This document shows, piece after piece, positions 8,240-42,576 of a stretch of DNA of 64,000 nt; positions within the stretch are counted from its first letter, which is position 1; each line of letters opens with the position of its first letter. Below the pieces are notes generated by a model, which saw only the letters and a list, made by a program, of their open reading frames with translations, made no database searches and was not told where the DNA came from. Source of the stretch: Alphaproteobacteria bacterium (GTDB taxonomy: Bacteria; Pseudomonadota; Alphaproteobacteria; TMED109); the NCBI GenBank assembly GCA_022825705.1, contig JAJDWH010000010.1, positions 1-64,000 on the forward strand, written 5' to 3'. A program made the translations under genes and the position numbers.

Positions 8240-8475
8240 CGACCGAAGTTCCGCAAGTGCGCCCGATTGGTGGACAAGTCCTCCGGGCCGGCTACAACCC
8301 CTGCGAGATCGATCGCCTGAGACAGCGCCGACCCGGAGCGGGCGCCATCCTCGGTCTGAAGGTAGGATTCCACGGCATCGCGAATCAGCTTGGACCTGCC
8401 GATGCCGCGACGCCGAGCTGCTTCCTCTAGCCTGATGGCAAGGGCTTCGGGCACCTTCAGCGAGATCGTCTTCAT
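8236..8475 (-). CDS. Ribbon-helix-helix (CopG-type) antitoxin
   Basis: The 79-residue protein starts MKTISLKVPEALAIRLEEAA, continues RRRGIGRSKLIRDAVESYL, and is a typical RHH DNA-binding antitoxin with a C-terminal tail (DLAGVVAGPEDLSTN) of the kind that plugs VapC active sites. It precedes and overlaps the truncated vapC. The antitoxin is intact, the toxin is not, so it is a surviving half of a dead module. Confidence 0.85.
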   Translation of the reverse strand: MKTISLKVPEALAIRLEEAARRRGIGRSKLIRDAVESYLQTEDGARSGSALSQAIDLAGVVAGPEDLSTNRAHLRNFGR

Positions 8476-8731
8476 CGCAGCCTCAAGGTAATACCTTTCG
8501 GACAGAATGATCGTACTTCTACTGAGGATGAACGAGGAAGATTTCCGGGAGGTGGCGCCAACCTCAGCGGCGCGCGAGCCACGCACCGCCTTTGGCAGTG
8601 TCACAACATGCGCTTGACTGGCTGCATCGGGCCGCTGCGAGCCGGCGGCCCGGACCCGATCGTGCCGATCGACGCGAGGAAACTGGGCACGAGGAACGCG
8701 GAGCGCACAATGGCCTGGCAACGGCAAGCCT

Positions 8732-10909
8732 GTGACTGAAACAGCGACCCGTTGCCGAATCGCCGTTGATGTCGGCGGTACCTTCACGGACGTCGCGCTT
8801 GAGCTCGCCGGGGGCGGGATCGTCACCGCCAAGGTGCTGACCACCCCGAGCGTCCCGGAAGAGGGCGTGGTCGCGGCCGTCCGTCAGGCCATCGCCGAGG
8901 CTGGCGTGGAACCGGCCGCGGTCGGCCTGGTCATTCACGGCACGACACTTGCCACCAACGCCCTGATCGAGCGGACCGGTGCCAGGACGGCGCTCATCGT
9001 GACCGAGGGCTTCCGGGACTCGGTCGAGATGGCGCTTGAGAATCGCTTCGAGCAGTACGACATTTCCATCGACCGGCCGGCCCCGCTCGTGCCTCGCCAT
9101 CTGCGCTGGCCGGTCACCGAGCGGATGAATCACGCGGGCCACGTCCTGGTTCCCCTCGACGAGCAGTCCGTGCACGCCCTGTTGCCCCGGTTCGAGCGCC
9201 ACGCGATCGAGGCGGTCGCCGTCGGGCTGCTCCATTCCTACGCGAATCCCGCCCACGAGCGACAGGTCGGAGCGATTCTCCGCGACGTCCTGCCGGACCT
9301 CCGCGTCACGCTCTCGAGCGAGGTGTGCCCCGAGATCCGCGAGTACGAGCGCCAGTCGACGGCCTGCGCCAACGCGTACGTCCAGCCGCGAATGTCCAGC
9401 TATCTCGGGCGCCTCGATGCCGCCCTTCGCGGTCTCGGCCTGGGGTGCCCGTTGCTGCTCATGACTTCGGGCGGCGGGCTCACCACCCTCGAGATCGCGT
9501 CCCGTTTTCCGATCCGGCTGGTCGAGTCCGGTCCGGCGGGCGGGGCGATCCTCGCCGCCGAGATCGCGCGCGAGTGCGGCTGCGAGAACGCGCTGTCCTT
9601 CGACATGGGCGGGACGACCGCCAAGCTTGCCCTCATCGATGGGTTCGAGCCGCAGACGACACGCACGTTCGAGGTTGCCCGCGCCTACCGCAACTTGAAG
9701 GGCAGCGGCCTGCCGGTCCGCATTCCCGCCATCGAAATGGTGGAGATCGGTGCGGGCGGGGGCTCCATCGCGGGAGTCGACGCGATGGGTCGGCTGAACG
9801 TTGGGCCGGCCAGTGCGGGAGCCGACCCGGGGCCCGCCTGCTACGACCGTGGTGGCGAGCGCCCGACGGTAACCGATGCCGACGTCGTGCTCGGGCGTAT
9901 CGATCCGGCGGACTTCGCGGGCGGCTCGTTGCAACTGGTCCCGGAACGCGCGGCCGACTCGATTCGGGGCGCCGTCGGACGGCCGCTCGAGCTGACGGAC
10001 CCGGTTGCGGCGCTGTCCATTTCGGAAGTCGTCGACGAGAACATGGCCAACGCGGCCCGGGTCCATGCCGTCGAATGGGGGAAGGACGTCTCCGCCCGGA
10101 CGATGATCGCGTTCGGCGGCGCGGCGCCGCTGCATGCAGCGCGACTCGCCCAGAAGCTAGACGTCGATCGCGTCATCGTGCCGACCGGTGCGGGGGTCGG
10201 ATCAGCGATCGGCATGCTCCGGGCCGCGGTGTCGTACGAGGTGGTCCGCAGCCGCTACATGCGTCTCACCGAGTTCGATCCCGGCCCGGCCAACGCACTG
10301 CTCGGAGAGATGCAGGCGGAGGCGCGAGCGGTCGTGTTGGCCGGAGCCGGAGCGGATGCGGAGCTCGAGGAAACCCGGCACGCCTACATGCGCTACGTGG
10401 GTCAGGGACACGAGATCGTGGTGCCGCTTGCCAGCCGCACCCTGGTGGACGCCGACCGTGAGACCCTGGCCGACGCCTTCGACACCGAGTACTCGCGCCT
10501 CTTCAGCCGGACTCTCCCCGATCAGGAACGCGAGGTGCTGAGCTGGACGCTCACCGTTACCGCTCGAAGGGATTCTTCGATTCCGTTCGCGGCGAAGGGC
10601 GGCACCCTCCCGTCGCCGACAGCGGTCAGTGTCGGATCGCCGGTCCTGCAGCCGGCGGGAGGTCAGCGACCGGCGGCGGCGCCAGGCCGACAGCTCTTTG
10701 ACGAGATCCGCGCCGACTACGTGACGGCGACGGCGTATCGCCGCGACGAGCTCGCCCTGGACAGTGTAGTCGCCGGCCCGGCGGTCATCGTCGAGGAGCA
10801 GACGACCACGGTGGTGCCGGACGGATTTCAGGTCGTCGTCAATTCCCTCGGCTACCTGATTCTTGAGCGGCGGGATCCGCAGACGGTGGGTCAGCCTGGG
10901 GCAAGCTAA
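8732..10909 (+). CDS. hyuA: Hydantoinase/oxoprolinase subunit A (HyuA-like)
   Basis: The 725-residue protein is a full-length member of the N-methylhydantoinase A / 5-oxoprolinase family, which uses ATP to open cyclic amides. The actin-like ATPase core shows IAVDVGGTFTDVALEL at the start, IHGTTLATNALIERTGA, the central SFDMGGTTAKLALI, and the late FGGAAPLHAARLA. It starts with GTG 8732. Its usual partner, subunit B, lies 1.1 kb downstream on the same strand, the two now separated by an antisense FitAB module. Substrate cannot be predicted; hydantoins, 5-oxoproline and related lactams are all possible. Confidence 0.92.
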   Translation: MTETATRCRIAVDVGGTFTDVALELAGGGIVTAKVLTTPSVPEEGVVAAVRQAIAEAGVEPAAVGLVIHGTTLATNALIERTGARTALIVTEGFRDSVEMALENRFEQYDISIDRPAPLVPRHLRWPVTERMNHAGHVLVPLDEQSVHALLPRFERHAIEAVAVGLLHSYANPAHERQVGAILRDVLPDLRVTLSSEVCPEIREYERQSTACANAYVQPRMSSYLGRLDAALRGLGLGCPLLLMTSGGGLTTLEIASRFPIRLVESGPAGGAILAAEIARECGCENALSFDMGGTTAKLALIDGFEPQTTRTFEVARAYRNLKGSGLPVRIPAIEMVEIGAGGGSIAGVDAMGRLNVGPASAGADPGPACYDRGGERPTVTDADVVLGRIDPADFAGGSLQLVPERAADSIRGAVGRPLELTDPVAALSISEVVDENMANAARVHAVEWGKDVSARTMIAFGGAAPLHAARLAQKLDVDRVIVPTGAGVGSAIGMLRAAVSYEVVRSRYMRLTEFDPGPANALLGEMQAEARAVVLAGAGADAELEETRHAYMRYVGQGHEIVVPLASRTLVDADRETLADAFDTEYSRLFSRTLPDQEREVLSWTLTVTARRDSSIPFAAKGGTLPSPTAVSVGSPVLQPAGGQRPAAAPGRQLFDEIRADYVTATAYRRDELALDSVVAGPAVIVEEQTTTVVPDGFQVVVNSLGYLILERRDPQTVGQPGAS

Positions 10910-24206: not shown

Positions 24207-25232
24207 ATGATGACGAGGCTCGCCAGGATCCTGAGTGATCGGAGCACCCGGGAGAGCGTGGCCGCCCGTGTCGAAGACTACGAACGCCGGTACGGCGGCG
24301 AGTCTCGGGGCGGGAGGGACGAACGCAGGACGGACTATCGGAACTTCGAGAACACGTATTACGACCTGGTCACGGATTTCTTCGAGTACGGCTGGGGACA
24401 GTCCTTTCACTTCGCGCCCCGCGCCGCAAACGAAACCTTCGCCGCGTCGCTCGCGCGCCACGAACATTACATTGCCCACAGGCTGGGGCTGGCGCCCGGG
24501 ATGACGGCGGTCGACTTGGGCTGCGGCGTCGGTGGGCCCTTGATCGAGATCGCCCGTTTTTCCGGCGCTCGAATCGTCGGCGTCAACAACAATGCGATGC
24601 AGCTTGAGCGCGCGGCGAGACGGAGCGAGGCGGCGGGCCTCGGTCACCTGGTCGAATGGCTGAAGAGCGATTTCATGCAGGTGGACGCGCCTGATGGCTG
24701 CTTCGACGCTGCCTATTCCATCGAAGCGACCTGCTGTGCGCCGGACAGGGCGGGCGTCTACGGCGAAGTCTTCCGCCTGCTGAAGCCGGGGGGGCGTTTC
24801 GCGGCCTACGAGTATTGTCTGACCGACCGGTTCGACTTCGACGATCCGGAGCACCGTCGGCTGAGGGCCGACATCGAGCATGGTGGGGCTCTGCCCGATA
24901 TCGTCCGGCCGCATGTGGTCAACGATGCATTGCGAAACGTCGGATTCGAACTGCTTGAGGCCCGCGACTTGGCGGTCGAAGCCCCGCCCGGCGTCCCCTG
25001 GTATCAACCGCTCGTCGGTTCCGGCCTGTCATTCGCCAGGTTGAGGAGTTCCGCGGCCGGGCGCCGCGTGACCCACGGTTCGCTCTGGCTGCTTGAACGG
25101 TTGGGAATTGTGCCGCGCGGCACGACGCAGGTTTCCAGTCTTCTCAACCTTTGCGCGGCTGCCCTCGCCGAGGCGGGGCGCCTTGGCATCTTTACCCCGA
25201 TGTATTTCGTTCACGCCCGCAAGCCGGACTAG
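24207..25232 (+). CDS. Sterol C-24-methyltransferase homologue (ERG6/SMT family)
   Basis: The 341-residue protein is a class I SAM methyltransferase with the features that set sterol methyltransferases apart. These are YYDLVTDFFEYGWGQSFHF at about 51-69 (the SMT aromatic region), VDLGCGVGGP at 102-111 (SAM motif I), YSIEATCCAP near 170-179, and a C-terminal SMT domain ending TPMYFVHARKP. SMTs add a methyl group to C-24 of the sterol side chain. Bacterial homologues are rare. Phosphoethanolamine or tocopherol methyltransferases are less likely because they lack the YGWGQSFHF block. The gene stands alone; its stop overlaps the tail of a decayed group II intron maturase on the other strand. Confidence 0.85.
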   Translation: MMTRLARILSDRSTRESVAARVEDYERRYGGESRGGRDERRTDYRNFENTYYDLVTDFFEYGWGQSFHFAPRAANETFAASLARHEHYIAHRLGLAPGMTAVDLGCGVGGPLIEIARFSGARIVGVNNNAMQLERAARRSEAAGLGHLVEWLKSDFMQVDAPDGCFDAAYSIEATCCAPDRAGVYGEVFRLLKPGGRFAAYEYCLTDRFDFDDPEHRRLRADIEHGGALPDIVRPHVVNDALRNVGFELLEARDLAVEAPPGVPWYQPLVGSGLSFARLRSSAAGRRVTHGSLWLLERLGIVPRGTTQVSSLLNLCAAALAEAGRLGIFTPMYFVHARKPD

Positions 25233-29475: not shown

Positions 29476-30291
29476 CTATCGCACCCGCTGGAGCGCCGTC
29501 CTGGAGAAGTCACGAGCGTCAAGGTCGGTTCCAAACGCGTAATCGGACCAGACCAGCACGGTGCTCTTGCCCGTGAGATGGTTGGTCATCGTGATCCTGC
29601 TGCTCCGCCAGAAACGATCCAGATATTGTGCGTAGTCTTCCATGACCATCGTCTTGAAATGCTCTTCCCGGAGGTCGAAGTACTGGATCTGCATGGAGCG
29701 CAGTTCGTCCTTGTCAAGCCAGACTAGTTGACGGGAGTACCCTGATTCCTCACTCAGCGGAATTCGCTCGAGAACGATGCATTCGAGTTCGCCGCAAGGC
29801 TCATCCCGCAGGTACCGATGCGTGAATTTCTCTACTTCCGCGGCACCGAGATCCTCGTACGAGAACTCGCTGCCCATGAATGAGCCGGATTGATTTGCGG
29901 AGCTGATACGCTTGACCCGTTTCAGTGCGGGAAGATAGAGCCACTGGTCGTCCGGCCCGTCCTTGTGGGCGTGCACGAGAAATGCCGTCCCCCTGACGTC
30001 GCGCGGGCGGTCGAACACGAACACGCTGCGGTCTCCGTCGTCCGAGACCTCCATGACCTTCAGGCGCATCTCGCGATTGCTTTCCTGTCCCCGCTTGGTG
30101 CGCAGGGTCATGGTCATGCTGGAAGTGAAGTTGCCGAAACCCTTTTGCCGCTCGCGGGCCTCGGTTGCGATCCGGAGCCCGGCCTCTTCGGCGGTTTCCG
30201 CCTGCCCGACCGGAGGCTCGGCCGCCCAGGCGAAGATGGCAACCAGGATCCCGAATGACGTCAGGACCGAGCGGGGAAGAGAAGCGTGAAT
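29476..30291 (-). CDS. Outer membrane lipoprotein-sorting protein-like (LolA-fold) periplasmic protein
   Basis: A signal peptide (SVLTSFGILVAIFAWA) precedes a LolA/RseB-like half-barrel of the type found beside RND/MMPL transporters: FTSSMTMTLRTKRGQESNRE, GTAFLVHAHKDGPDDQWLYL, PALKRVKRISSANQSGSFMG and EFSYEDLGAAEVEKFTH. Such proteins carry lipids across the periplasm for the pump. The RND gene lies upstream on the same strand, the two separated by a ParDE module. I place the start at ATT 30289-30291 because AGAAGG lies eight bases upstream and the signal peptide then starts normally. GTG at 30406-30408 would add a 39-residue non-signal-like extension. Confidence 0.75.
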   Translation of the reverse strand: MHASLPRSVLTSFGILVAIFAWAAEPPVGQAETAEEAGLRIATEARERQKGFGNFTSSMTMTLRTKRGQESNREMRLKVMEVSDDGDRSVFVFDRPRDVRGTAFLVHAHKDGPDDQWLYLPALKRVKRISSANQSGSFMGSEFSYEDLGAAEVEKFTHRYLRDEPCGELECIVLERIPLSEESGYSRQLVWLDKDELRSMQIQYFDLREEHFKTMVMEDYAQYLDRFWRSSRITMTNHLTGKSTVLVWSDYAFGTDLDARDFSRTALQRVR

Positions 30292-30505
30292 TACCGTTGC
30301 CTTCTGTCGGTTGCCGTAGCAGCAACAGGGAACATTGGAACTCGACGGAAAGGCCCGAGCAGTGAGCTGATCACATCGACTCCTGAACCTGTTTGAGCAT
30401 GGTAGCACGATTGGGTCTCATATCGAGACGTTGACAGATCCTATGAGGCCCGTTGGGCGGCCTGCGCCACGGTGTCGTTTTGCTCATCTCATCAGGAGGC
30501 TGGAC

Positions 30506-31569: not shown

Positions 31570-33921
31570 CTATTCGATCGACCGCTTCAGCCGTTCCCTG
31601 ATTTGCGCAGTCGTTTCCTTCGTCGCATCGAGCGCCATCAGCAACGGCGGAAGGAACAGGAAGTCCGCCAGCAGGGCAATGATGACGGTGATCCCAACGA
31701 GCAGGCCGAGCGCCTGATTGGTCACCATTCCCGACGCTCCGAACACCATGAATCCCAGCGCGAACACAACCGTCGTCGCCGTCAACGCCTTGCCGACGGC
31801 ACTGAAGGCGGCCTGGACGGACTCGGACGGCAACAGCCCGCGCTTCCTGGCGCCGACATACTTGGTCATGAAGTGGATCGTGTCGTCCACGATGATGCCG
31901 AACGCAATCGCGGTGACGACCGACGCCGCGACGCCGACCTCTCCCACCAGATATCCCCAAAGGCCCATTGCCATGGCGGCCGGCACGAAATTCGGGACCA
32001 GGCTGATCAAGCCGAGCCGCACGCTTCGGAAGACGAAGAGCAGGAGCAGGGACACGATGGCCATTGCCGCGATCGTGCCCCGCAGCATGCCCTCAATGTT
32101 CCGCTGAATTGAATGCGCGCCGACAACGGAAACGCCGGTTGCCTGGGTTTCGAGGTCGGGCGCGTTCTGCTGGAACCAGGCCTGCGTGCGATTGTCCAGG
32201 TCAACCTTTTCTCGGGTGGTGAGGCTCTTGAGCACAACTGTCACGCGCGTCGACGACCGTTCCACGTCGATGAGATTGTTCAGGTCGCGGCCGACCGGCA
32301 GGGAGAACTCGTAGAGCAGCAGGTACTGCGCGGCAAGATCGGAGTCGTCCGGAAGCACGTAGAAGTCGGGATTGTCGCCATGCAGATTCTTGTTCAGGCG
32401 CTTCATGATGTCGGAGATGGCAAAGACGTGGGCAACCTCCGGCTGTGACCGACTCCACTCCGCAAAGGCATCCACCTGCTGGAGATATTCGACATCCGTG
32501 ACGCCGCCTTCCCGCCCGGAGTTGAGCGAGTACTCATACGTTTCCACGCCCGTGAAATTCTCGCTCACAAAATCCGTGGATCGCCGGAACTCGTAACTGT
32601 CGTCGAGTAGCTCCAGCCAGTTCTCCTGCAGCTCAATCCGCGAGATTCCGGCGATCAGTACGACCATCACGGCGGCGACGGACCAAAGCAGGATCGTGCG
32701 GTAGGAAATGACAAACCGCGCCATGCGATCGAAGACGTCTGCTTTCCCCGCAGGCGCAGTCCCGCCACGCATGGGCACAACGGTCAGAAACGCGGGTAGC
32801 AGCGTGACCGAAAAAACGAAGGCAGCCATCGCGCCGAATGCCACCATGTTGCCCATCACACGAAACGGCGGCATTTCCGCGAAGTTGAGGCTGAGAAAGC
32901 CGATTGCGGTCGTCACCGACGTCAGGAGAACGGGCCACACGTTGACCTGCAGCGAATGCATGGCCGCCTGCGGACGGTCCTTGCCCTGGCGCAGGCCCGC
33001 CCGCATCCCCTCGATAATGTGCACGGAATGCGCGACCGTGACCGCCATCAAGACGAACAGTGCCGCGCCGCTCTCGCCGAACAGCTTCAGCCCGACCCAG
33101 CCGGTGAAGCCCAGCGCGGACAGCAAGACCGCGACCAGCATCACGAGAATCGCCAGCATTCCCCATAGCGAGCGCAGCAGAACGATGGCGACGAGCAGCA
33201 TGGTACCGAGCGCGACGGGCGCAAGGACGCCCATGTCATCGTCAATCGCTTGCTTCATGGCGCGGTTGAGGATGAGTTCGCCGGTCATGTGGTAGTCGAT
33301 GGTCGGATACCGCTCTCTCGCTTCGGCGGCAGTACCGTGGAGGAAGTCGGTGACCTCGAACCTTCCCTGCTCTCGGTCTTCGGGGAGCGCAACGCTGACG
33401 ACCAGCCCGGCGACGCGACCGTCCCTGGAAATGAAGCGCCCCGAGACTTCTTCGGTACTGAGCGCAATTTCCCGGATTCGCTCGATATCGCTGTCGCTCA
33501 GGGAACTGGCGTCGTCGATCAGGGGCGCGACGATCAGCTCGTCCTCGAGGCCCTCGCTGTGCGAATAGTTGGTGATCGAGTCAACGCGTGTGACGTAGGG
33601 CGTTCGCCATAGTCGATCGGTCAGCTCTTCGATGGCAACAAGTGTTTCCGGCGTGAAGACGGTACCGCTTTGCGGCGCCACGACCACCAGCGCGGCGTCG
33701 GACAGAGAGTAGGTGGCTTCCATCTCGTCGAGTGCGACGATGTGCGGGTCGTCCTGGCTGAAGTGATTTCGAACGTCGACGTCGACGACCGTGATGAATT
33801 GGGCGCCCGCAGCGAGGGCCAGCATTGCAACCAGGGAGAGCACGATCGTCAGCCACCGGCGACCGACGATGAGGGCAATGCAGGAATCGAGTGTCATGAC
33901 AAGATGATCGACCGGGTGCAA
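31570..33921 (-). CDS. RND/MMPL-family transporter
   Basis: The 783-residue protein has the duplicated RND plan. There is one TM near residue 25, a periplasmic loop, a five-helix block (APVALGTMLLVAIVLLRSLW, VAHSVHIIEGMRAGLRQGK), then a second TM, loop and block ending FLFLPPLLMALDATKE. The helix blocks resemble sterol-sensing-domain-type (MMPL/HpnN/Patched-like) transporters of lipids and hopanoids. With the LolA-like protein downstream it could move a hydrophobic lipid, here possibly a sterol, between membranes. The polarity (import or export) cannot be read from sequence. ATG 33897 (MTLDSCIALI) is an alternative start. Confidence 0.88.
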   Translation of the reverse strand: MHPVDHLVMTLDSCIALIVGRRWLTIVLSLVAMLALAAGAQFITVVDVDVRNHFSQDDPHIVALDEMEATYSLSDAALVVVAPQSGTVFTPETLVAIEELTDRLWRTPYVTRVDSITNYSHSEGLEDELIVAPLIDDASSLSDSDIERIREIALSTEEVSGRFISRDGRVAGLVVSVALPEDREQGRFEVTDFLHGTAAEARERYPTIDYHMTGELILNRAMKQAIDDDMGVLAPVALGTMLLVAIVLLRSLWGMLAILVMLVAVLLSALGFTGWVGLKLFGESGAALFVLMAVTVAHSVHIIEGMRAGLRQGKDRPQAAMHSLQVNVWPVLLTSVTTAIGFLSLNFAEMPPFRVMGNMVAFGAMAAFVFSVTLLPAFLTVVPMRGGTAPAGKADVFDRMARFVISYRTILLWSVAAVMVVLIAGISRIELQENWLELLDDSYEFRRSTDFVSENFTGVETYEYSLNSGREGGVTDVEYLQQVDAFAEWSRSQPEVAHVFAISDIMKRLNKNLHGDNPDFYVLPDDSDLAAQYLLLYEFSLPVGRDLNNLIDVERSSTRVTVVLKSLTTREKVDLDNRTQAWFQQNAPDLETQATGVSVVGAHSIQRNIEGMLRGTIAAMAIVSLLLLFVFRSVRLGLISLVPNFVPAAMAMGLWGYLVGEVGVAASVVTAIAFGIIVDDTIHFMTKYVGARKRGLLPSESVQAAFSAVGKALTATTVVFALGFMVFGASGMVTNQALGLLVGITVIIALLADFLFLPPLLMALDATKETTAQIRERLKRSIE

Positions 33922-34644: not shown

Positions 34645-35691
34645 GTGAACGGCGAGCGCGGCGTGGGTGACGCGGCGGCCACCCTGTTCCCGTTTCCCGA
34701 GGGGTGGTACTTCGTCGCGAGTCAGCGCTCCCTGGCCAAGGAAAAATTGCTTGAAAGGCAATGGCTTGGACGGAACATCGTCACGTGGAGCGATGACGAT
34801 GGAAGTGTCTGCGTAGCCGATTCTGTATGTCCGCACATGGGTTCCGCATTGGGCCCGACCGTCGGCGGCCGCGTGCGCGATGGCTGTCTTGTCTGTCCCT
34901 TTCACGGCTTCACGTACGATATCACCGGCAACTGTGTCGCAACGCCGTTCGCGCCGCCGCCGAGATCCTTGACACTGAACGTCTATGATACGCGGGTCAT
35001 TCAAGGCCTCATCTTTGGTTGGTGGAGCGACACGGGCCGCCCGCCGCAATGGGACCTGCCGGACGCACCGCCGGCCGAAGACGACTGGTGCGATCTGGAA
35101 ATCCGGACCGTCCGGTTTCCCGGCCACGTGCAGGAAATCGCAGAGAACTCCGTGGACCTCGCCCACCTGCGGTATGTGCACGGCTACAACAACGTGCAGC
35201 CTGTCGGGACGACGACCGTTGAAGGTTCGTACCTTCAAGCCCGTTTCGATTTCACCCGCCGCCGCCCCATCGCAGGTTTCATCGACAGCGTCTATCGCAT
35301 TTCGGCCGCTGCCCACGTTTACGGGCTGGGTTACTCGTTCGTCGATGTCCAGGAGCATTCCATTGGCATGGATCTCCGCTTGTGGGTCTTGGCCACACCC
35401 GTCGACGGCACGTTGGTCGATCTGTCGCTGGCCAGTCAGATCCGGGAAATACGAAGGCCCAAGCGGCTGATCGTCGGTCTCGGCTTCCTGCCGCCACGGT
35501 GGCGCACCAGGATCATGAACAGGCTGGTGGTTTCCGCGCAAATGCAGGATGTGCAACAGGATGTCGTGATCTGGCAACGACGGCAGCACCGACCGAATCC
35601 TCGGCTGTCTCGTGCCGACGGCGATATCGGTAGATACCGACGCTATTGCAGGCAGTTCTACCCGCAGGACCGCGCGAGCGAGGATGGCTAG
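34645..35691 (+). CDS. Rieske non-heme iron oxygenase, sterol/steroid-type candidate
   Basis: The 348-residue oxygenase has the Rieske [2Fe-2S] ligands CPH at 62-64 and CPFH at 84-87, and the mononuclear-iron facial triad region HVQEIAENSVDLAHLRYVHG (161-180: Asp171, His174, His179). The HVQEI-EN-D-H-H block recalls the Neverland/DAF-36 cholesterol 7-desaturases, and the fold is also that of KshA and the bacterial sterol C-4 demethylase SdmA. Given its neighbours, a sterol substrate is likely; C-7 desaturation or C-4 methyl oxidation are the main options. A reductase is not encoded next to it. The start is a GTG. Confidence 0.82.
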   Translation: MNGERGVGDAAATLFPFPEGWYFVASQRSLAKEKLLERQWLGRNIVTWSDDDGSVCVADSVCPHMGSALGPTVGGRVRDGCLVCPFHGFTYDITGNCVATPFAPPPRSLTLNVYDTRVIQGLIFGWWSDTGRPPQWDLPDAPPAEDDWCDLEIRTVRFPGHVQEIAENSVDLAHLRYVHGYNNVQPVGTTTVEGSYLQARFDFTRRRPIAGFIDSVYRISAAAHVYGLGYSFVDVQEHSIGMDLRLWVLATPVDGTLVDLSLASQIREIRRPKRLIVGLGFLPPRWRTRIMNRLVVSAQMQDVQQDVVIWQRRQHRPNPRLSRADGDIGRYRRYCRQFYPQDRASEDG

Positions 35692-38082: not shown

Positions 38083-38313
38083 TCACAACGGGTAGCGGTT
38101 GGTCGGGCGGTAGCCGGAGATCCGCACCGCCGCCATGGAGAGGGCGTGCGCGGAGTTGTCGGCGAGATCGAACCGGGACTCGAGGTTGCGGTCCCCGTTC
38201 CCGGCATCCGCGAGCCGGGCGACTCCGGTCCGGATCAGTCCCGATATCTCGCTGGCTGCCGGCGCCTCCGCCTTCAATAGACCGCTCGCTACGAGATTGT
38301 CGAGATATCGCAA
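38083..38313 (-). pseudogene. HEPN-like protein gene, truncated
   Basis: A TTG start with GGGGAGG seven bases upstream leads to LRYLDNLVASGLLKAEAPAA, LIRTGVARLADAGN and LESRFDLADNSAHALSMAAV, RISGYRPTNRY. This matches small helical proteins (about 140 residues) of the HEPN-like type found near nucleotidyltransferases. It stops after 76 codons where relatives continue, so the C-terminal half is missing. Confidence 0.55.
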
Positions 38314-38377
38314 GCCCGTTCCTCCCCAATTTGCAACGGTCTTGAATTTGGTATTACGGACCGGTGAGAGATTGGGA

Positions 38378-38518
38378 ATGGGTCCCGAGGACACGACCGA
38401 CTTCAGCACCGGGCCGACCTGGCCGGAGGACGCACTGGCAGAAGACAGCAAGTTCGGCGTGCTCACACCGATGCCGTTCCGGCTGGACCGTCATCCAGGC
38501 GCTAAGGAGACCGCGTGA
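38378..38518 (+). CDS. Small protein translationally coupled to the ERG2-like gene
   Basis: A 46-codon frame (MGPEDTTDFSTGPTWPEDAL, then SKFGVLTPMPFRLDRHPG) ends with TGA overlapping the GTG of the ERG2-like gene by four bases, the coupling typical of operons. The family is not recognised; it has no membrane segment. The overlap is the main evidence that it is translated. Confidence 0.45.
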   Translation: MGPEDTTDFSTGPTWPEDALAEDSKFGVLTPMPFRLDRHPGAKETA

Positions 38519-39138
38519 AGTACGTTTTTGACCCCAAGATCCTGCACGAAGTCGCCCTGGCTCATCTGGAGCTGCCGCTCGAGGAAAAGTTCACTGCCAT
38601 CGCGCAGAGCCTTGCCGAACGCTATCCCGGTCTGATCGAGACTGAACCCGAGTGGTTCTTCTCCAATGCCGGTGGCGTCATGGGCCAGCTCACCGTTCTG
38701 TATGCGTCACTTCGGGAGTACGTGATTTTCTTCGGCAGCCCGATCGGCGGAGAAGGACATACGGGCCGATATTCATTTGTCGAAGACCATGCGATCATTC
38801 TGGATGGCGAGTTTTGGTACTACACTGAAGGCGATACTCGAAGAACCGAGTATCGCCCCGGCGATGTCGTATACCTGCCAAAGGCGGTAGCGAAGGGCTA
38901 TCGCATCGTCAATCATGGCTGGATTCTGGAATATGCACGGGGCCCCATTCCCACCATGCTGCCGTACGGTATTGCGGATACCGCGTTCAGCACACTCGAC
39001 TACAGAACCCTGTTCCGAACCTTCCGGATTTACATCAGACACTTGATGCGGTCTGCACGAAAGCGCCCTGCCGCCCACGCTGGGCGCCGAAGTGCGTCCG
39101 GCACCGGCCGGTCTCGCAAGGAGAACGAGGGACGGTAA
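38515..39138 (+). CDS. ERG2 / sigma-1-receptor family protein, putative sterol C-8 isomerase
   Basis: The 207-residue protein shows the family signature through most of its length: EWFFSNAGGVMGQLTVLYAS (47-66), EYVIFFGSPIGGEGHTGRY, the acidic VEDHAIILDGEFW (Asp91, equivalent in position to sigma-1 Asp126), YRPGDVVYLPKAVAKGYRI, and WILEYARGPIPTMLP with Glu139 (position of sigma-1 Glu172). It then has ADTAFSTLDYRTLFRTFRIY. Fungal ERG2 moves the sterol double bond from C-8 to C-7; both acidic residues needed for that proton shuffle are present. The N-terminal membrane helix of eukaryotic members is missing, and a basic tail is added. Start GTG 38515. Confidence 0.88.
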   Translation: MKYVFDPKILHEVALAHLELPLEEKFTAIAQSLAERYPGLIETEPEWFFSNAGGVMGQLTVLYASLREYVIFFGSPIGGEGHTGRYSFVEDHAIILDGEFWYYTEGDTRRTEYRPGDVVYLPKAVAKGYRIVNHGWILEYARGPIPTMLPYGIADTAFSTLDYRTLFRTFRIYIRHLMRSARKRPAAHAGRRSASGTGRSRKENEGR

Positions 39139-39440
39139 CGCCTACCCGAGCTCACCGCTGCCGCCCGTGGAGTCCGAGCGCGTGCAGCGCGAAGTACTGT
39201 CCAATTGTCGACTACCGCACGCCCCCTGCACTTGGCGCGCGACTGACGGAGGCCTCCGGAACAGTGCCGTGTGAGGCGCCGTCCGCCCGGGGATTGTTTG
39301 GCCGGCTTTTCGCAGGAAGCTGACAGCGTATGCGCGGGCGCTGCCGCGGCAGATGTCCTAGTCGGCCAACTAGGTTGTCTAGGCATCGGGTCGTCCGCAG
39401 ACTGCGGAGACGTCATGATCCTTTCCGAGTGAGCGCCGAC
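39139..39440. other. Intergenic region with a short inverted repeat before the Tsx-like gene
   Basis: No gene seen. CCTAGT-CGGCCA-ACTAGG (39357-39374) is a perfect 6-bp-arm inverted repeat with a further TCTAGG at 39378-39383, a possible operator for the channel gene. Confidence 0.4.
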
Positions 39441-40220
39441 ATGCAGGTTTTCGTGTTTTCGAAGCGGTTCGGGCTGGCCGTGCTCGCGTTGCTCATGGGA
39501 GCCTCGGCGCAGGCCACGGATTGGAGCAACACCGAGTTTCATCTCCAGCTCGGCAATCTGGACGCCCCCTCCTTCGCTGGTGGCGGCAGCGCCCTGCACG
39601 TGATCTACAGCCTGCAGCACGCGAGCGGATGGAAATATGGCGACAACTTCTTCTTCGTTGACGTCGTGGACTCGCGGCAGCCCGGCGCCCCCGACATCGA
39701 CTTCTACAGCGAGGCCTACGCGAACTTGAGCCTCGGCAAGATCACCGGCGATCGCATTGGCGCCGGCCCGGTCTCGGATGTCGGGCTGATCGGCGGCTTC
39801 AACTGGGCCGTGGACGCGAAGGTCCGAAAGTATGTCGCTGGTGTACGGCTGGCGCTCGGCCTTGAGGGCTTCGCGTTTGCGAACCTCGACCTGATGGCCC
39901 TGATCGACGACAGCGGGGGGCTCATGTCCGGAGGGGCGCCCGCGGAGGACGACACGGTCCTCATCGACTTCAACTTCGCACGGCCGTTCAGGATCGGCAC
40001 AGCGGACTTCAGCCTCGAAGGCCACGTCGAATATGTCGGCGAGCGGACCAATGAACTCGGCGACCCGGTGCGATCGTGGATCCTGGCGCAGCCCCAGCTG
40101 CAGTGGTACTTGACTGACCGGATCGCGCTCGGGATCGAGTACCAGTTGTGGATCAATAAGTTGGGCGACCAGGACACCGACGAGAACGCCGTGCAGGCTC
40201 TGTTCGTGTGGGAACTCTAG
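39441..40220 (+). CDS. Tsx-like outer-membrane channel protein
   Basis: The 259-residue protein has a signal peptide (MQVFVFSKRFGLAVLALLMG, cut after ASAQA) and the Tsx-family pattern DWSNTEFHLQLGNLDAPSFA, LQHASGWKYGDNFFFVDVVD, then beta-strands ending AVQALFVWEL with the C-terminal aromatic residue. Enterobacterial Tsx admits nucleosides, but many family members lie beside lipid or terpenoid genes and have unknown substrates. Here it sits between the ERG2-like and 3beta-HSD-like genes, so passage of a hydrophobic substrate is possible, as inference. Confidence 0.82.
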   Translation: MQVFVFSKRFGLAVLALLMGASAQATDWSNTEFHLQLGNLDAPSFAGGGSALHVIYSLQHASGWKYGDNFFFVDVVDSRQPGAPDIDFYSEAYANLSLGKITGDRIGAGPVSDVGLIGGFNWAVDAKVRKYVAGVRLALGLEGFAFANLDLMALIDDSGGLMSGGAPAEDDTVLIDFNFARPFRIGTADFSLEGHVEYVGERTNELGDPVRSWILAQPQLQWYLTDRIALGIEYQLWINKLGDQDTDENAVQALFVWEL

Positions 40221-40817: not shown

Positions 40818-41813
40818 GTGCGGGTGATCACGGGAGCGAGCGGCCATATCGGCGGTGTGCTCGCCCGAGCGCTGGCCGACCGGGGTGACCCTCGTCAGGT
40901 CCGCGCGATCTACCGCGATCGGAAAGGCACGGCAGCCGATCTCGACATTGAGTGGGTCGGTGGCGACATTCTCGACCAGGAATCGCTGGTCGCCGCGTTC
41001 TCGGGGGCTGAAACCGTCTACCACCTGGCCGCCGTGGTGTCGATCGACCCCGGCCGGGCCAAGGATGTCCATACGACGAACGTGTCGGGCACGCGCAACG
41101 TCGTCGAGGCAGCCCTGCGATGCGGCGTGCGGCGGCTTGTGCATGTTTCCTCGATTCACGCCTTCAACCAGTACCCGCTCGACGAAGTGCTCGACGAGAG
41201 TCGCGGTCCCGCCGACGGTTCGCGGCACGACGCCTACGACCGGTCGAAAGCGGCCGGCGAAAAGGAGATTCGCAGCGGCATAGATCGCGGCCTCGATGCC
41301 GTGATCCTCAACCCGACCGCCGTGATCGGCCCCTTCGACGCCGTGCCCTCGTACATGGGACACGTGTTCCTCGATCTGCACCGGAGACGAATTCCCGCGC
41401 AGGTTGCGGGCGGCTTCGACTGGGTGGATGTGCGCGATGTGGTCGACGCCACGGTGGCCGCGGAGACGAAGGCGAGATGCGGCGAGAACTACCTCCTGTC
41501 AGGTGGCTGGGATTCCGTGCGCAACCTGGCGCTCCTGTCCGAGCAGGCGACCGGGGTGCCGGTGTCGCGTTTCGTGGTCCCCGTGTTTGTAGCCCGGCTC
41601 TGGGCGCCATTTCAGGTCATGTTGGACCGTAGTCAGGGGCGCCGGCCGCTCTATACGCCGGCTGCGGTACGCGTGATGAGCAACGGCAATCGCCGGATAT
41701 CCAACGCCAAGGCACGGGCGGAACTGGGGTTCAAGCCGCGTCCCTTGGCAGATTCCGTAAGGGATACCTATCGTTGGTTCGACGAGCAAGGCATGCTCGG
41801 CGAAGCTGGTTGA
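40818..41813 (+). CDS. NAD(P)-dependent 3beta-hydroxysteroid dehydrogenase-like protein (extended SDR)
   Basis: The 331-residue protein has the Rossmann motif TGASGHIGG (5-13), the DxxD-type site GGDILDQ, AAVVSI, a Ser at 111-112 and the catalytic YDRSK (Tyr140, Lys144). The overall pattern, with VDVRDVVDATVAA and a late SNGNRRISNAKARAELGFKP, is that of the 3beta-HSD/ERG26/SdmB-like extended SDR group. Dihydroflavonol-reductase-like functions cannot be excluded. It should oxidise the 3beta-hydroxyl of a sterol to the ketone. One base separates it from the 5alpha-reductase-like gene, so the two form an operon. GTG start. Confidence 0.82.
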   Translation: MRVITGASGHIGGVLARALADRGDPRQVRAIYRDRKGTAADLDIEWVGGDILDQESLVAAFSGAETVYHLAAVVSIDPGRAKDVHTTNVSGTRNVVEAALRCGVRRLVHVSSIHAFNQYPLDEVLDESRGPADGSRHDAYDRSKAAGEKEIRSGIDRGLDAVILNPTAVIGPFDAVPSYMGHVFLDLHRRRIPAQVAGGFDWVDVRDVVDATVAAETKARCGENYLLSGGWDSVRNLALLSEQATGVPVSRFVVPVFVARLWAPFQVMLDRSQGRRPLYTPAAVRVMSNGNRRISNAKARAELGFKPRPLADSVRDTYRWFDEQGMLGEAG

Positions 41814-41814
41814 G

Positions 41815-42576
41815 ATGGCCGAGGAACAACTTCACGGCGTGCTGGTATGGGCGGTCATCGCCGCGGCTGGCCTGACGTTCCTGTACCTGCTCCGCATGAC
41901 CGCGCCCTACGGCCGCCACTACGCCGGCACGGGCTGGGGACCCCACATTTCCAGCCGGCTCGGCTGGGTCATCATGGAACTGCCGGCGGTCGTCATCTTT
42001 CTTGCGGTCTATCTCGCCGGGAAGTCCGCGTCTCACCTCGTGCCGCTGTTCTTCCTGGCCATGTGGCAGGTCCACTATCTGAACCGGACGTTCGTGTTTC
42101 CGTTCCGGATCCGGGCAACCGGACGGAAGACGCCGCTGCTGATCGTGGCGTCAGGCTTCTTCTTCAACGCGATCAACGCCTACATCAATGCCCGGTTCAT
42201 TTCGGAATTCGGCGAGTACGCGATCGAATGGCTCGCCGACCCGCGTTTCCTGATCGGCGTCGGAATCTTCCTGGCGGGGATTGCGCTCAACCTGCACGCC
42301 GACAACGTCCTCATTCGCCTGCGCAGCCCGGGCGAGACCGGCTACGTGATCCCGCAGGGAGGCGGGTATCGCTTCGTGTCGTGCCCCAATTACCTGGGTG
42401 AACTCCTCGAATGGGCCGGCTGGGCACTCGCCACCTGGTCGACGGGCGGCCTGGCCTTTTTCCTCTTTACCGCCGCCAATCTCGTGCCCAGGGCGCGCAG
42501 CAATCATCGATGGTACCGGGAGACCTTCAGCGAATACCCGCCTCGCCGGAAGGCGCTGATACCGGGCGTCTTCTGA
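41815..42576 (+). CDS. 3-oxo-5alpha-steroid 4-dehydrogenase (steroid 5alpha-reductase)-like membrane protein
   Basis: The 253-residue protein has six or seven TM segments and the SRD5A C-terminal domain: MWQVHYLNRTFVFPFRIR, GIALNLHADNVLIRLRSPGE, GGGYRFVSCPNYLGELLEWA and the final ARSNHRWYRETFSEYPPRRK, ALIPGVF. The NYLGE and HRWY(R/K)..F..YP..R.A..P motifs bind NADPH. SRD5A enzymes reduce the delta-4 double bond of 3-keto steroids to the 5alpha form. Coupling to a 3beta-HSD-like gene suggests that the dehydrogenase makes its 3-keto substrate. Enoyl reductase of fatty acid elongation (TER) is a related alternative. Confidence 0.88.
   Translation: MAEEQLHGVLVWAVIAAAGLTFLYLLRMTAPYGRHYAGTGWGPHISSRLGWVIMELPAVVIFLAVYLAGKSASHLVPLFFLAMWQVHYLNRTFVFPFRIRATGRKTPLLIVASGFFFNAINAYINARFISEFGEYAIEWLADPRFLIGVGIFLAGIALNLHADNVLIRLRSPGETGYVIPQGGGYRFVSCPNYLGELLEWAGWALATWSTGGLAFFLFTAANLVPRARSNHRWYRETFSEYPPRRKALIPGVF

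Follow-up and report, generated by a model that had tools for sequence, protein, structure and literature searches.

An ERG2/sigma-1-receptor family protein without a membrane anchor, encoded among sterol-modifying genes of an alphaproteobacterium, is a probable sterol isomerase

The ERG2 gene and its neighbours

The stretch of DNA analysed here, 64,000 nucleotides of a contig from a sponge-associated alphaproteobacterium, referred to below as the window, carries an ERG2/sigma-1-receptor family gene at 38515..39138 on the forward strand. Its reading frame is complete, starts with GTG 5 nt after a Shine-Dalgarno-like AAGGAG (38504..38509, +; read directly from the sequence) and encodes 207 residues, exactly where the preliminary description of this DNA had placed such a protein. 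The family assignment made there is borne out by Pfam, in which PF04622 (ERG2_Sigma1R) matches residues 2-180 over profile positions 21-205 of 210, that is over most of the domain, at E=2.3e-59 with 200.7 bits (cut-off 21); sigma-1 receptors are the only solid sequence matches in the PDB (E=1.1e-33, 39% identity). As had also been noticed, the domain has no membrane helix in front of it; the alignment with the receptor begins at about receptor residue 35, and the bacterial homologues that were fetched likewise lack an N-terminal membrane helix. A genome-wide profile search found this to be the single PF04622 gene of the genome.

A chance or spurious reading frame is ruled out by the strength of the family match together with a dN/dS well under 1 (0.14-0.28 against the other copies in the genus, a range that leaves out the near-identical pair of the window and locus L007, where changes are too few to judge). 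The gene encodes an intact ERG2-type protein and is under purifying selection. Eukaryotic contamination is ruled out as well, since the contig around it is bacterial and 399 kb long, and a sister genome has the gene in nearly identical surroundings. Its GC3 of 0.66 is the lowest among the 34 genes in the window that reach 450 bp or more, 2.5 standard deviations under their mean of 0.80. A search for carriage on mobile elements gave zero matches among 72,556 plasmids and 50,697 phages.

Directly upstream lies the C-terminal relic of a sterol methyltransferase (SMT) gene (38291..38518, +), which was recognised in tblastn searches with intact SMTs from L016, L017 and L018 over 51-77 residues (47-56% identity, E down to 5e-11), and whose stop codon TGA (38516-38518) overlaps the ERG2 start. 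The same relic is seen ahead of the sister copies of ERG2 in L007, L008 and L010, and ahead of that in L009 it is weaker and decayed, with an in-frame stop. At seven other loci (L011, L014, L017-L020 and L022) an SMT is followed by ERG2 in the same order, abutting, overlapping or nearly so, and the pair adjoins a squalene epoxidase-cyclase fusion, CYP51, ERG24, a Rieske gene resembling SdmA, and SdmB; the ERG2 frame of L022 (L022:5406-5969) has no ATG, GTG or TTG near its start, possibly reflecting an unusual start codon or a fault in the assembly. The relic abutting ERG2 therefore indicates that the gene came as part of an SMT-ERG2 pair, of which the paired SMT was lost in the genus and ERG2 was kept. 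An intact sterol 24-C-methyltransferase-like SMT gene is present elsewhere in the window (24207..25232, +; PF08498 Sterol_MT_C, E=6.6e-23) and falls in the same homology cluster as the SMTs adjoining ERG2 at other loci.

The remaining neighbours bear out a sterol-gene setting. On the reverse strand, a LolA-like outer-membrane lipoprotein-sorting protein (29476..30408; PF17131, E=2.6e-59), with a possible role in lipid trafficking, and an MMPL/RND transporter (31570..33921; PF03176, E=2e-37) both have homologues in the ERG2 cluster of L011; the transporter also shows a weak similarity to the sterol-sensing domain that is under the cut-off (PF12349, E=8e-4). On the forward strand, a KshA-type Rieske oxygenase (34645..35691; PF19298 KshA_C, E=3e-25, and PF00355) has 3-ketosteroid 9alpha-hydroxylase as its best PDB match (E=1.1e-24) and scores 38 bits with the SdmA model, whose cut-off is 600; it differs in kind from the SdmA-like Rieske proteins of core clusters. 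It is followed by a fusion of a GPP34 (Golgi phosphoprotein 3-like) domain with a cytochrome P450 (35908..37992, +; PF05719, E=7.8e-29, and PF00067, E=8.2e-30), the P450 part being distantly related to CYP51 (best PDB matches CYP51 at E=2.6e-19; 25% identity to the CYP51 of the clusters).

Fusions of this kind recur near sterol genes, in L011 (L011:2597-4630) and L017 (L017:18025-20055) as in the window, and in genomes G025 and G026 the epoxidase-cyclase gene has P450 frames of comparable length some 3 kb away; no description of the GPP34-P450 fusion was found in the open-licence literature searched. Downstream of ERG2 lies a gene of unknown family (39330..40220, +) which has no Pfam match, adjoins ERG2 also in L007, has a homologue in L010 and possibly, by inspection, encodes an outer-membrane protein. 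Next come a short-chain dehydrogenase resembling SdmB and 3beta-HSD (40818..41813, +; PF01370 and PF01073), for which SdmB is the best NCBIfam model with 216.6 bits (cut-off 600), and a steroid 5alpha-reductase-like protein (41815..42576, +; PF02544, E=7.4e-52), which is close to the solved 3-oxo-5-alpha-steroid 4-dehydrogenase (PDB 7c83, E=1.6e-81) and lies inside this sterol-modification island. Like the window, L011 holds LolA-like, MMPL and GPP34-P450 genes next to its SMT-ERG2 pair, and judged by gene content the window looks like such a sterol island minus its core.

Predicted fold and the acids of the pocket

An AlphaFold2 model of the protein, built from 22 bacterial sequences, has a mean pLDDT of 83.5 and a pTM of 0.79, with only the basic tail (residues 185-207) modelled at a pLDDT below 50. 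When the model was searched against the PDB with Foldseek, 42 sigma-1 receptor chains came out on top (TM 0.82-0.85, rmsd mostly 1.2-1.4 Å) and cupins came next. The predicted fold is the strand-rich, cupin-like barrel of the family with two C-terminal helices (145-159 and 163-182), which are the counterparts of the membrane-facing helices of the receptor. The preliminary description had proposed a structure prediction and overlay on the sigma-1 receptor, with the absence of a cupin-like pocket counting against its reading; given the match to sigma-1 receptors and then cupins, with a TM of 0.85 and an rmsd of 1.2-1.3 Å in the overlay, such a pocket is present in the model.

That description had further credited the protein with both acids of the ligand pocket, Asp91 and Glu139. 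The second of these stands. Glu139 (codon 38929..38931, +), which is inside model strand 127-142, aligns with receptor Glu172 and is unchanged in all 25 sequences compared. Several surrounding positions are kept likewise, with Tyr69, Phe73, Glu68, Glu90, Arg142 and Asp155 matching receptor Tyr103, Phe107, Glu102, Glu123, Arg175 and Asp188. Asp91, on the other hand, falls in the column of receptor Ile124, two residues before Asp126 on the same strand, beta5 of the receptor, and the Asp126 column is occupied by Ala93 in the window protein; no single-gap alignment joins Asp91 to receptor Asp126, and an equivalence of the two is ruled out. Glu90 and Asp91 (codons 38782..38787, +) together open the acidic beta-strand (90-104 in the model), and Ile124 is itself listed among the positions that line the ligand pocket of the receptor (PMC10094450).

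The two placements of the second acid are mutually exclusive in this comparison. Nineteen of the 25 sequences (the sponge clade described below, L024, L025 and yeast ERG2) have Asp only at the Ile124 column and the other six (two receptors, L023, L026, L027 and L028) only at the Asp126 column, none having both or neither. The yeast ERG2 sequence used here is not a database entry and is to be read as provisional; we take its second acid to be yeast Asp126, at the strand position of Asp91. This sequence scores 316 bits in Pfam and agrees with the published one at 10 of 10 named residues (PMC8230181). With the yeast side resting on that sequence, Asp91 has the acid placement of fungal ERG2. Beyond PF04622 and this placement, the window protein shares with Saccharomyces cerevisiae ERG2 the glutamate (Glu139, yeast Glu174) and a tyrosine (Tyr69, yeast Tyr105), whereas it differs in the missing N-terminal membrane helix, in an additional residue ahead of the acidic strand and in a basic, probably disordered C-terminal tail. 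The comparison with the human and Xenopus sigma-1 receptors is similar in kind, a common fold at 39% identity being set against the shifted acid, the missing transmembrane helix and a gene located among sterol enzymes.

Bacterial relatives and the sterol genes of the genus

The view that this family is essentially eukaryotic, from which the preliminary description started, is out of date. A scan of GTDB species genomes found 22 bacterial PF04622 loci, and bacterial ERG2 genes in sponge-symbiont sterol clusters have already been reported by Kelly et al. (2022), who found steroid clusters (CSGs) in 115 MAGs from Ircinia, belonging to ten phyla, mentioned ERG2 in several of them and inferred horizontal transfer for three CSG core genes (PMC9531527). 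Related clusters include the msb cluster of a Melophlus symbiont, which encodes the epoxidase-cyclase fusion MsbE (Mohanty et al. 2020, PMC7074536). Fusions of the MsbE type (PMC7074536), up to 1207 residues long, are also found in the core clusters seen here (L018:2021-5644 and relatives). Brown et al. (2023) demonstrated activity for SMTs of symbionts, Lee et al. (2023) mentioned a homologue for C-8 isomerisation in a Calothrix cluster, and no experimentally characterised bacterial ERG2 was found in the open-licence literature searched. Relatives of the window gene occur in the Ircinia and Melophlus type of cluster (PMC9531527, PMC7074536), but the window lacks the core genes and has ERG2 together with the KshA-type Rieske gene, the GPP34-P450 fusion and the 5alpha-reductase-like gene. 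What is new here is the SMT relic, the low GC3, the purifying selection and the lack of detectable core genes in a genome that is 93.6% complete.

In the phylogeny, 16 sponge-type sequences (that of the window and those of fifteen loci) fall into a single clade, supported at 100/100 and spread over five phyla (Pseudomonadota, Acidobacteriota, Verrucomicrobiota, Rhodothermota and Actinomycetota). The window protein is about 66-74% identical to the clade members outside its own genus, copies lie in sponge MAGs, and most MAG names in the clade (jk18x...) are of the pattern used by Kelly et al. for their Ircinia data set (PMC9531527). Such identity across five phyla points to horizontal transfer, by which ERG2 would have reached this alphaproteobacterial genus with other sterol genes. 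The more distant homologues from Myxococcota, deltaproteobacteria and planctomycetes (L023-L028) are of similar length, lack the membrane helix and are 42-53% identical to the window protein, but in four of these six the acid is found where the sigma-1 receptor has it. A recent transfer from a eukaryote is unsupported, since the closest sequences come from bacteria and the receptor falls outside them, in a comparison whose eukaryotes are two receptor sequences and the one provisional yeast sequence. ERG2 was found in four of 28 genomes of the order, all four in one genus, and in one of 398 genomes sampled across the phylum, the sole positive being the window's own genome; in these samples it is rare outside the sponge-symbiont setting.

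The contiguous core of ERG24, CYP51 and LSS/ERG7 that a sister genome holds in L008 was found neither among the window genes scanned nor in this genome. No squalene or oxidosqualene cyclase was detected in the genome, nor any SE-OSC homologue, of which three sister genomes hold one at 64-100% identity; the search for ERG24, positive in the control genome G024, was negative here, and in that for a CYP51 orthologue the best matches were other P450s at 25-33% identity, as against 76% in G024. In the latter genome a near-identical ERG2 (99%) has the same gene neighbourhood as in the window, and another contig, of 27.9 kb, holds the complete core cluster along with integrases and a transposase. In L008 the core cluster is bordered by integrases of the phage type and a transposase of the Mutator family (L008:3-2329 and 8308-9606), which are a possible means of its transfer. 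Across the genus, SMTs occur in all seven genomes and a cyclase in three; G000, G022, G023 and G027 (92-97% complete, one to three SMTs each) gave no oxidosqualene or squalene cyclase. With three cyclase-less genomes besides this one and SMTs in all seven, sterol modification without synthesis seems to be normal in the genus. Squalene-synthase-family genes are present in all seven genomes, so they are uninformative as a test of de novo synthesis.

Function and source of the substrate

Taken together, the family, the fold and the setting indicate that the protein is very probably a sterol isomerase. In the mechanism that we favour, Glu139 and Asp91 would move a double bond of ring B from delta-8 to delta-7 through acid/base chemistry within the cupin pocket, Asp91 serving as the second acid, and the amphipathic C-terminal helices and basic tail would seat the anchor-free protein on the membrane. 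The SMT-ERG2 pair would have been acquired horizontally from sterol clusters common among sponge symbionts, its SMT half decaying to the relic and its ERG2 half being retained under selection. As the cyclase core was not found, the substrate would most likely be imported, as delta-8 sterols taken from the sponge or from neighbouring bacteria, and action on imported sterols is the simplest reading for this species. As a whole, an ERG2-type delta-8 to delta-7 isomerase acquired in this way and acting on imported sterols is the likely explanation of the locus.

The source of the substrate is the part on which an alternative weighs most. The same enzyme could work in a sterol-making organism whose core cluster was dropped in assembly or binning. 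The core genes form a single cluster in the sister genome, and their absence therefore amounts to one missing block rather than several independent losses; at 93.6% completeness a lost contig could explain it. A cyclase in three of the four genomes with ERG2, the complete cluster beside a 99% identical ERG2 in G024, and the squalene-synthase-family genes fit this alternative too. Against it, SE-OSC, ERG24 and CYP51 all went undetected, and the three further genomes with SMTs (92-97% complete) show cyclase-free members to be normal in the genus, so that we regard de novo synthesis as rather unlikely, though worth serious attention.

The reaction itself could also differ. The neighbouring 5alpha-reductase-like protein and KshA-type Rieske oxygenase would suit a ring isomerase with another outcome, either delta-8 or delta-7 to delta-8(14), or action on a 3-keto or 5alpha steroid that the SRD5A-, KshA- and HSD-like neighbours handle; sterols of the 8(14) type are known from sponges, and for eukaryotes an isomerase has been suggested as the way to them (PMC13277303). 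However, these two genes were found in the cluster of this genus only, and elsewhere ERG2 is linked to canonical sterol genes, which makes such an outcome improbable.

The sigma-1 receptor has both acids as well, yet it serves as a receptor that binds ligands and is not known to be an isomerase. Fold and acids thus do not prove catalysis, and delta-8 isomerisation, as drawn from family membership and the acids, is a reasonable but indirect conclusion. A non-catalytic sterol-binding or regulatory protein working like that receptor, with which it would have the fold and Glu139 in common, is nevertheless very unlikely in view of an acid placement that is that of yeast ERG2 and not of the receptor, and of the close linkage to sterol-modifying enzymes across many phyla.

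One bacterial homologue, L028, has the receptor-type acid yet adjoins ERG24 and cyclase genes, and for this reason both placements of the second acid may be used by enzymes. More tentatively, and with rather less confidence than in imported-sterol isomerisation as such, one might picture a mostly cyclase-free symbiont genus that keeps its SMTs, and here ERG2, to remodel the sterols of its host or neighbours, within a family in which two interchangeable placements of the second acid, two residues apart, would both be enzymatic.

The mutually exclusive placement of the acid offers a direct mutational handle on the mechanism of ERG2, and sigma-1 receptor homologues without an anchor would lend themselves to structural studies of this drug-binding family. 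For the organism and its setting, the sterols of sponges, including the side-chain alkylated ones known as fossil biomarkers, may be partly built or altered by bacteria, and the step that a bacterial ERG2 would contribute is the isomerisation in ring B.
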